Shown here: positions 20,970 through 45,328 of the stretch, one piece after another
Position numbering within the stretch: position 1 is the first letter of the stretch
How the letters are laid out: each line of letters begins with the position of its first letter
Assembly (NCBI GenBank): GCA_036403155.1
Contig: DASWRM010000048.1
Coordinates: 1-45,697, forward strand
Source: Gaiellales bacterium
Lineage (GTDB): Bacteria > Actinomycetota > Thermoleophilia > Gaiellales > JAICJC01
Direction: 5' to 3'
DNA length: 45,697 bases
Notes under the pieces: generated by a model
The model's input: only the letters and a program-made list of their open reading frames with translations
Database searches by the model: none
Told to the model about the DNA's origin: nothing
Translations under genes and position numbers: made by a program

Positions 20970-21281
20970 TCACGGCCGATAGTCGACGGCGCCTCGCGCG
21001 AACCGCGCGAACGCCGCGTCGCCCACGATCGTGAGGTCGTGCGCCCACACGTGGTCGGTCGTGCGATGGGCGACCTGCCGCGCCCAGGAGGCGCTTCCCT
21101 CGTACTCGCCCGCGAGCTGCTCGAGCGTGAAGGCCTGGCCGACGCGCCGGTTCAGCTCGGCGACGATCTCGTCCACGACGGCTCGGTAGACGGCTTCTCG
21201 AGCGGGCGACACGTCCAGCGAGTCGAGCCGGCGCTGCCCGGCCTCCCACTCCATGACGGCGAGATCCAGCGTCGTGCTCAC
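20970..21281 (-). CDS. Hypothetical protein coupled to DUF501
   Basis: 103 aa, mostly helical, with no recognised domain. Visible pieces are MEWEAGQRRLDSL, YRAVVDEIVAELNRRVG, FTLEQLAGEYEGSASWARQ and HVWAHDLTIVGDAAFARFARG. No cysteine pairs, signal peptide or membrane segment. Its GTG overlaps the DUF501 stop as GTGA, so the two are co-translated. In mycobacteria the gene after DUF501 is a Ppx/GppA phosphatase; this protein is too short and lacks its motifs. Confidence 0.6.
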   Translation of the reverse strand: MSTTLDLAVMEWEAGQRRLDSLDVSPAREAVYRAVVDEIVAELNRRVGQAFTLEQLAGEYEGSASWARQVAHRTTDHVWAHDLTIVGDAAFARFARGAVDYRP

Positions 21282-21763
21282 GTGGTGCAGCACCCCGTCT
21301 CGGGGAACAGCGGCGCGGCCTCCTCGACGATCGCCCGCCCGAGCGCGTACCCCGGTTCGGCCAGCGCGAACGCGGCATGCGCGTGCAGGCACTTGACTGC
21401 TCCGGCCCGCGCTGTGCCGCCGATGCCGAGCTCGAGCGAGGCGCCGCCGTCGGCCATCACGGCCGCCGGGCGGCGGAGCGCCCGCTGGCGGGCCGCGCCC
21501 CAGGCATACGACTCGGCCGCCGGCCCTCCGGCAGCAACGAGCCGCTCGAAGCGGTCGACGCCGCCCGCATCCTCGAGCGCCGCGATCGCAGCGACGGCAC
21601 TCGGGCACGTGAGGTAGTAGGTGGTCGGGAACGGATCACCGCCGGCCAGGTAGGCATCCTGCTCGACGACGGCAGGAGCGCCGTAGGGGCAGCGCGCTGC
21701 GACGCCCCGCAGGCCGCGCGGCGGGCGGCCGAGCTGCCGCTCGACGATGGCACGATCGTCCAC
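21278..21763 (-). CDS. DUF501 family protein
   Basis: 161 aa. It matches the actinobacterial DUF501 family in layout: VERQLGRPPRGLRGVAARCPYG at the start, then FPTTYYLTCPSAVAAIAALE, and GIGGTARAGAVKCLHAHAAFALA near the end. The conserved cysteines (in RCPYG, LTCPS, KCLHAH) and HAH could bind a metal, but the function is unknown. In other actinobacteria it lies between ftsB and ppx after eno, as it does here apart from ppx. GTG at 21763 has TACGCT 6 bases upstream and no ribosome site. Confidence 0.88.
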   Translation of the reverse strand: MDDRAIVERQLGRPPRGLRGVAARCPYGAPAVVEQDAYLAGGDPFPTTYYLTCPSAVAAIAALEDAGGVDRFERLVAAGGPAAESYAWGAARQRALRRPAAVMADGGASLELGIGGTARAGAVKCLHAHAAFALAEPGYALGRAIVEEAAPLFPETGCCTT

Positions 21764-21775: not shown

Positions 21776-21881
21776 GCCGCCGCCTGCGCGCGGGCGGAAC
21801 CATCACACCACCCGGCACCTTCCCGCAACCGGCGCGAGACTTCCGCATGCGTCACAGGAGCCCAACAGCCCCCGGTCCGGT

Positions 21882-21977
21882 GACCAAGTCATACCAGGCG
21901 GCCGATGCCGGCTCGTGACGCCCCCGGCACGGTCGACGTGGCAACCATCGCATCACCCAATTCTTGGAGACCAAGCC
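21882..21977. repeat. Paired GACCAAGTC element, family 2, locus 1
   Basis: GACCAAGTC at 21882-21890 and a variant GACCAAGCC at 21969-21977 lie 87 bases apart. The second follows CCCAATTCTTGGA; a CTCGTGACGC block lies between them. The same order of CTCGTGACGC, CCCAATTATTGGA and GACCAAGTC recurs at 44375-44480. No ORF or transposase is associated. Confidence 0.55.
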
Positions 21978-21999
21978 GAGCCCAGGGGGTGCGAGCGGG

Positions 22000-22098: not shown

Positions 22099-22422
22099 TC
22101 AGCCGCAGTGCGTGAGCTTCGACTGTGCGATGTCGCTGATCACCAGCGGGTGCTCGTTCGGCAGCACGTACCCGCACGCGCGGGCCATGATCTCGATCTT
22201 CGCCTTCGTGCCGAGCGCGGCTGCTTCGGCGACCAGCCGATCGTGCTGCCGCTTCAGTGTCGTCAGCTGACCCCGCTCGTCGCGCAGGCGGCGGCTCGAC
22301 CCCAGGTACTTCTGCACCGGGCTGACGTACAGCGCAGCCATCAACAGCAGCACCGACACCGCGGCCACCCGGCGAAGCGAGAACGGGCTACGGTCGCGAT
22401 CGATCAGTCGAGCGGACCCCAC
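22099..22422 (-). CDS. ftsB: FtsB/DivIC-like septum formation initiator
   Basis: 107 aa. A single membrane helix (about 18-36, VAAVSVLLLMAALYVSPVQ) is followed by a coiled coil (RRLRDERGQLTTLKRQHDRL) and a short conserved tail (IEIMARACGYVLPNEHPLV), the normal DivIC/FtsB layout. It should join the FtsL/FtsQ divisome subcomplex outside the membrane. Its position after eno and before DUF501 is conserved in actinobacteria, here with pyruvate kinase inserted after eno. GTG at 22422 lies 31 bases after the pyk stop, without a clear ribosome site. Confidence 0.85.
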   Translation of the reverse strand: MGSARLIDRDRSPFSLRRVAAVSVLLLMAALYVSPVQKYLGSSRRLRDERGQLTTLKRQHDRLVAEAAALGTKAKIEIMARACGYVLPNEHPLVISDIAQSKLTHCG

Positions 22423-37947: not shown

Positions 37948-37970
37948 GTCGCGGTCACGTGCCAGAAGAC

Positions 37971-38040
37971 TGGGGCGCCTGGATTCGAACCAGGGGTCGC
38001 GGGACCAAAACCCGCTGCCTTACCACTTGGCCACGCCCCA
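37971..38040 (-). tRNA. tRNA-Gln (anticodon TTG)
   Basis: 70 bases, full cloverleaf on the minus strand: acceptor TGGGGCG paired with CGCCCCA; D arm GCC...GGC; anticodon stem GCGGG/CCCGC around loop TTTTGGT, anticodon TTG; T arm CCTGG-TTCGAAT-CCAGG. No CCA is encoded. It reads in the same direction as glmU, 23 bases downstream. Confidence 0.95.
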
Positions 38041-44289: not shown

Positions 44290-44296
44290 GGCGGAC

Positions 44297-44302
44297 ACTC
44301 TA
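44297..44302 (-). promoter_or_regulatory. -10 box TAGAGT for rsmI
   Basis: Minus-strand TAGAGT (44302-44297) ends 7 bases before the ATG at 44289. Leaderless start predicted. Confidence 0.5.
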
Positions 44303-44374
44303 CGAATCTCGCAGCCGGCACGCCGGTTCCGGCCGGCGCGAAGGCACACGCCGCCGACCACGCCATTCATTGGA

Positions 44375-44480
44375 GACCAAGTCGTACCGCGGGGGTGATG
44401 CGCGCTCGTGACGCAGGTGTGACGGGCGCTGGGATGGTTGAGCGGGCAGGCGGCCCAACCCAATTATTGGAGACCAAGTC
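44375..44480. repeat. Paired GACCAAGTC element, family 2, locus 2
   Basis: GACCAAGTC at 44375-44383 (after ATTCATTGGA) and again at 44472-44480 (after CCCAATTATTGGA), 97 bases apart, with CTCGTGACGC and GTGTGACG between. This matches the order and spacing of 21882-21977. It fills most of the gap between rsmI and the HNH-like gene, where apparent GC drops. Confidence 0.6.
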
Positions 44481-44514
44481 GAGGCGACTATCCCCGTACT
44501 GTAGAGAAAGGTGG

Positions 44515-44548: not shown

Positions 44549-45328
44549 TCACTTTCCGAGATGCCGCCAGCGGTGAGTCAGCGCGAGCAGGCCAAGGTCG
44601 TCCAGCGGGACGATGGGTGGCCAGGTGACGGTGGCATCAGGTGGGCCGTCGATCTTGATGGTGCTGTCCCTCCACCGCTCCGCGACACCGGCGTCGTCAG
44701 CGATCCGGGGCCACGGCTTCCCCTCGACCGGGCGGCATATGAGGTTCTGCAGCACCGCTTGGCCGATGCTGAGGGTGCATGTGTGGCCATTGACCACCAT
44801 GACGTCTGGTGCCATGGCTTGGGCGAAGGTGATGTTCCCGCTGTAGCCCCGAGCAACCTGGAGAGATGATGAACGCTTCGCGAGCCAAAGCGTGGTGCGA
44901 TCAGGGGCGGTTCCCGATGCCGCCAATGCGGTTCGCTCGAGCTGGGTGTAGTAAGCCGGTTCCCTTGATTCCGCCTCCAGCACCATGTCGGTCATGGTGA
45001 GCCACGCGGCGAGTGCGAGTTGCCCGCCTGTCGGGATGCTGAGAGGCGTTCCCGCGATCATCGGCCCAAGGGTTGGCTGGGCGAGTTGCTGAAGGTCGCT
45101 CATCCAGCCGTTGTTACATGTCTGGCAAACGTGGTTGCGGACGGCCAGGACGATGGTGTCCTCCAGCCGGTCGGGCTGTTGGACGCCTCCATAGCGGCGA
45201 CGCTTCTTGATCCGCGCGTCGGTGGGCTTCGTCAACAGCGGCCGGATCCACTTGGGGATCGCGTCCTCTTTGCTGTCAGCGGTGTTGCCGCAGAAGATGC
45301 ACGTGCCGCGGTTCCGGCGTCTAGCCAT
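44549..45328 (-). CDS. HNH-like zinc protein, probable accessory gene
   Basis: 259 aa. N-terminal CIFCGNTADSKEDAIPKWI at about 10-28 and later NHVCQTCNNGWMSDLQ at about 66-81 form two CxxC pairs around a His/Asn-rich core, like HNH-type proteins common in phages and islands, often called HNH endonucleases. The catalytic His is uncertain. The remaining ~175 residues match nothing I know. Apparent GC and codon use are lower than in the rest of the window, which suggests transfer. ATG 45328 has a GAAAGGG ribosome site 7 bases upstream. Confidence 0.6.
   Translation of the reverse strand: MARRRNRGTCIFCGNTADSKEDAIPKWIRPLLTKPTDARIKKRRRYGGVQQPDRLEDTIVLAVRNHVCQTCNNGWMSDLQQLAQPTLGPMIAGTPLSIPTGGQLALAAWLTMTDMVLEAESREPAYYTQLERTALAASGTAPDRTTLWLAKRSSSLQVARGYSGNITFAQAMAPDVMVVNGHTCTLSIGQAVLQNLICRPVEGKPWPRIADDAGVAERWRDSTIKIDGPPDATVTWPPIVPLDDLGLLALTHRWRHLGK

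Follow-up and report, generated by a model that had tools for sequence, protein, structure and literature searches.

The ftsB-DUF501 gap of a Gaiellales bacterium probably holds a copy of a REP-like miniature element mobilized in trans by RAYT transposases

The repeat in the gap between the ftsB-like and DUF501 genes is very probably a copy of a short non-autonomous REP-like miniature element, most likely mobilized in trans by the RAYTs of the same genome. A non-autonomous element was one of three readings offered for the locus from its sequence alone, next to a small RNA and a protein-binding array, and it is favored here by the dispersed copies, their near-identity within unrelated flanks, their fixed direct pairing, and the pairs found upstream of RAYT genes with matching subfamilies.

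Results

Two copies in the window. The window, i.e., the whole stretch of 45,697 nucleotides analyzed, contains two loci of the repeat, at 21.9 and 44.4 kb, with the following features.

21278-21763, minus strand: DUF501 gene (PF04417, 85.7 bits)
21851-21857, plus strand: GTCACAG, similar to the motif GTCA(C/A) at the left end of other copies; putative left boundary
21879-21890, plus strand: unit B core GGTGACCAAGTC
21954-21991, plus strand: unit A CACCCAATTCTTGGAGACCAAGCC...GGGTG, with a fold no better than shuffles
21954-21958 with 21987-21991: possible outer stem CACCC/GGGTG of the 21.9-kb unit A
22099-22422, minus strand: FtsB/DivIC-like gene, placed by synteny (Pfam 25.2 bits, below the 28.9-bit cut-off)
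44290-44482, plus strand: second, more typical composite; the stretch is also present in C49:19.2 kb, with both outer flanks different
44369-44388, plus strand: first unit A of the 44.4-kb copy, ATTGGAGACCAAGTCGTACC
44435-44443, plus strand: TGGTTGAGC spacer box, present in both species of the genus
44459-44482, plus strand: second unit A of the 44.4-kb copy, CCCAATTATTGGAGACCAAGTCGA, 97 bp beyond the first

The window has the core GACCAAGTC at three positions, always on the plus strand (21882, 44375, and 44472). A pair of these cores, 87 bp apart, had been described at 21.9 kb; the spacing and one exact core stand, but the second core is in fact GACCAAGCC (at 21969), a single change away from GACCAAGTC. 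The described match to the 44.4-kb locus is borne out, as both loci carry GACCAAGTC, CTCGTGACGC (21912 and 44405), and the CCCAATT-TTGGA blocks (21956 and 44459). The 21.9-kb locus is a degenerate variant, with the units in B-A order at 87 bp spacing and without the TGGTTGAGC box, and the same order is found at C76:28 kb with a spacing of 86 bp; the 44.4-kb copy is the more typical one. The gap itself is widened, as had been supposed: it measures 335 bp, versus 18, 18, 11, and 38 bp in four relatives belonging to other genera, while in the same-genus relative G001 it measures 241 bp and has its own palindromes. Immediately past the 44.4-kb repeat, the G+C content falls from about 0.72 to 0.64, so the end of the window may be acquired DNA. 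A gene there (44549-45328, minus strand) encodes a protein of 259 aa whose start (CIFCGNTADSKEDAIPKWI) is CxxC/HNH-like, with no Pfam or NCBIfam match and one weak PHROG match of unknown function (E 3.4e-5).

A family of direct pairs. When the whole 3.2-Mb genome was searched, TTGGAGACCAAG with at most one mismatch gave 43 matches versus 14 for the reversed control, GGTGACCAAGTCG gave 45 versus 5, and ATTGGAGACCAA gave 42 versus 0, with only 0-2 matches per genome in eight relatives. The repeat is therefore neither limited to the two window loci nor at chance level. About 60 unit matches built on GGNGACCA were counted, a few of them probably twice at contig ends (the left flank of C53 is also that of C57), and three units are solitary. 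All 31 neighboring pairs have the same orientation, and 23 of them are spaced by 97-98 bp. A chance likeness of GC-rich intergenic DNA might draw on the GTGACG-type motifs that are common around the copies, but with counts far above controls and every pair in one orientation, its probability is negligible and we regard it as already refuted by the counts.

Within the units, CCCAATTNTT usually lies 5' of GGNGACCA, and GTCGTWCC with a G-rich arm often follows on the 3' side; GTGACG (CGTCAC on the other strand) is also frequent 3' of the unit, at no fixed position. The composites are of the types A-A (e.g., the 44.4-kb copy), A-B, and L-R, the last having GGAGCCCGACTCC as its left and GGAGACCAACCCC as its right unit. 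The contig ends C2, C15, C70, and C73 probably represent two physical copies, and we estimate about 30 scattered copies of the element in the genome. Intergenic position was checked at the two window loci and, by eye, in some of the many others. At G000 C37:181405-181876, the unit is also repeated in tandem with a period of 153 bp, GTCACAGCACCCGTGACGC and GGCCGGCCGTAGGCCGGCC included. A CRISPR or attC array was considered and dropped, given that most loci have two units and that an unsystematic look revealed no cas or integrase gene. Similarly, GTCACRGCNNCCGTGACGC was rejected as a common module, having few copies that are limited to the genus except for one match.

Ends and signs of dispersal. 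Alignment of the copies revealed near-identical bodies with abrupt flank changes. Agreement begins at GTCAATACCGCA in the L-R copies, and at GTCACAG or slightly left of GTCACGA in the A-B copies. In C15 and C70, near-identity sets in approximately 50 bp to the left of the first core, with unrelated sequence further out, and in C2 and C73 it extends on the right as far as about GTTCCGTTGC, after which they are unrelated. C42 contains two tandem composites and C33 one more, again with near-identical bodies and an abrupt change of flank. About 190 bp of the 44.4-kb copy are also found in the copy at C49:19.2 kb; one of the two precedes a gene that we take to be rsmI-like and the other adjoins what is presumably a small cupredoxin-like protein, both named from their translations. 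Several contigs break off within copies, which is the expected behavior of a repeat. Taken together, near-identical copies within different flanks are, as far as sequence comparison can tell, marks of dispersal.

REPs in other bacteria also bind proteins and affect transcription. Such roles are mentioned in the literature (PMC3733652) and both window copies are intergenic, so one could regard the family as an array with a regulatory or structural role, made up of protein-binding sites or of RNA hairpins that act in termination or mRNA stability, which spread by recombination and was kept for its function, its RAYT linkage being incidental. We consider this quite improbable: the copies are near-identical and sharp-ended in unrelated flanks, the core is species-specific, a pair stands at each of the three close RAYT paralogues (see below), and the Rfam scan matched no family at the repeat locus. 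The only Rfam hit in the window was a tRNA gene (37970-38040, minus strand; RF00005, 60.7 bits).

Linkage to RAYT genes. The genome encodes five Y1_Tnp genes, three of which are close paralogues (RAYT2 and RAYT3 have 73% and 63% identity to RAYT1, respectively), and each of these three has two same-strand units upstream. An A-A pair stands upstream of RAYT1 (C30:24.4 kb). Ahead of RAYT3 (C30:2.5 kb) there are two GGGCTCAGAGCCC units with a spacing of 109 bp, which returns at four further loci (C21, C76, C42, and C79). Upstream of RAYT2 (C37:120.6 kb) lies a GGAGACCAACCCC/GGAGTCCGACTCC pair, in the order R then L, and the same unit types recur as pairs at six other loci; this match between RAYT2 and the L-R subfamily is the clearest indication that one transposase serves one family. 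The RAYTs score above the cut-off for PF01797 and have the HWH motif and the conserved Tyr. Their best NCBIfam model is REP_Tyr_transpos, at 62-66 bits, below its 80-bit cut-off, and the sole PDB match is to TnpA-REP (4er8), weak (E 0.016) and aligned across the catalytic Tyr region. A further RAYT-like gene (G000 C49:44813-45094, minus strand; L086) has GGTGAAAAAAA-GTGCCAGGC palindromes on both sides; it is TIRYT-like and unrelated to the ftsB-gap repeat.

These genes also bear on the possibility that the copies are miniature IS200/IS605-type derivatives, in which one unit would be the left-end hairpin and the other the right-end hairpin of a parent IS that has been lost, and a Y1 transposase, not a REP system, would move them. 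Same-strand hairpin ends without inverted repeats do have the look of IS200/IS605 ends, and the spacing is fixed and the internal box conserved. However, the closest transposases score best as RAYTs, with TnpA-REP as the PDB match, and the pairs lie upstream of the gene and not at its two ends, making such derivatives unlikely.

Hairpin structure. When arms were swapped among all units, the real arms paired better, with 3 of 2,000 swaps as good; within single subfamilies, the test was not significant. The folding energies of the 21.9-kb units are no better than those of shuffles (z -0.44 and -0.79), and among eight units folded, one stands out clearly (z -2.67), the energies being mostly unremarkable. 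RNAalifold did not find a common structure for 31 mixed units. Hairpin formation by the units is thus plausible. The absence of visible terminal inverted repeats, remarked on in the sequence-only reading, fits Y1 transposases, since these recognize hairpins on one strand.

Relatives. The nearest genome, G001, is without the GGAGACCAAG core. It has the GGGCTCAGAGCCC palindrome in common with the genome studied, as well as GGTGTCAAACACC pairs and others around the TGGTTGAGC box. Its RAYT has the same downstream sequence beside it as RAYT3, to which it is also slightly closer (68% versus 64 and 65%). The 15-base box pattern was counted 45 times in each of two species of the genus and twice in the control. 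The box total of G002, although similar, was rejected as representing the same element, as it consists largely of GTCGAGC-type and other variants. As judged from these genomes, the core family is species-specific, with the paired-hairpin layout and the box kept in the sister species around different hairpins. A simple stem-loop scan around the RAYTs of other genera gave mostly TIRYT-like palindromes or nothing, and the paired layout was not found, in a scan that needs 7-bp perfect stems, so that weak units slip through and those of the sister species were also missed. In two genomes (L222 and L198), TGGTTGAGCGGAAT lies just 3' of a tRNA-like sequence, without visible hairpin pairs and possibly by chance.

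Discussion

A typical copy of the element consists of two same-strand units, putatively hairpin-forming and 97-98 bp apart, with the TGGTTGAGC box between them. In the likely mechanism, the units would fold whenever their strand is exposed as single-stranded DNA, for example on the lagging-strand template, and the RAYT would recognize one unit as the left end and the other as the right end. Nicks would then be made beside the units by the catalytic tyrosine of the RAYT, and the single strand, once excised or copied, would be joined elsewhere in intergenic DNA. Single-strand transposition, binding, and cleavage by the RAYTs, as well as any current activity, are predictions made from the sequences.

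We further propose, tentatively and with slightly less than even confidence, that this is a separate kind of RAYT-moved element, with two same-strand hairpin ends at a fixed distance, a conserved TGGTTGAGC box, and no GTAG tag, standing between IS200/IS605 and REPINs. It may have been kept across a Thermoleophilia genus while its hairpins were replaced, the RAYT paralogues following. The findings add a REP-like system for the class Thermoleophilia, in which no earlier report of such repeats was found (a literature word search returned no paper on REP/RAYT in this class, which is weak evidence of absence). Direct pairs bear on the origin of REPs from IS200/IS605 ends, and the three RAYT paralogues with matching subfamilies, together with a sister species in which the framework is kept and the hairpins are replaced, allow the co-evolution of transposase and repeat to be tested directly.

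Among the known systems, CGTC-tagged repeats have a CGTC tag beside the stem, a CCA tail, and no link to a transposase; here, CGTCAC on the opposite strand is frequent 3' of the unit at varying positions, and a transposase link is present, unlike in that class. TIRYT palindromes (PMC3733652) are alike in involving Y1 proteins with flanking palindromes, and the RAYT-like gene in C49 and several others in the order resemble them; however, TIRYTs have a palindrome on both sides of the gene, in contrast to the two same-strand units upstream seen here. IS200/IS605 elements are similar in that their end hairpins lie on the same strand, terminal inverted repeats are absent, and the transposase is of the Y1 type, but no parent IS was seen and the transposase is nearer to RAYT. 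REPINs and BIMEs (PMC3116915) are likewise two-repeat mobile units thought to be moved by RAYTs in trans, but in them the two repeats stand in inverted orientation and fold into a single long hairpin, while none of the 31 neighboring pairs is inverted here.

REP tags are GTAG or CGTC, or neither in some subclasses, and REP dimers are mostly inverted, head-to-tail ones being rare (PMC2817692, PMC3733652, PMC6006769, and PMC3116915). At the hairpin foot, GT[AG]G was found within 20 nt 5' in 2 of 52 units (background 11%) and on the other side in 1 of 52 (background 15%). Some REP subclasses also lack the GT[AG]G tag, and Actinobacteria are not among the phyla named for tagged REPs (PMC6006769). 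Given the absent tag, and pairs that are direct and not inverted, this is a RAYT-linked REP-like element, not a canonical REP or REPIN. It differs from the REP/RAYT systems, or REPtrons (PMC2817692, PMC3733652, and PMC6006769), in its missing tag and weak hairpins, and it resembles them in the Y1/HUH transposase whose gene adjoins a dispersed hairpin family of its own, in the several RAYT-repeat pairs within one genome, and in repeats that vary between species.
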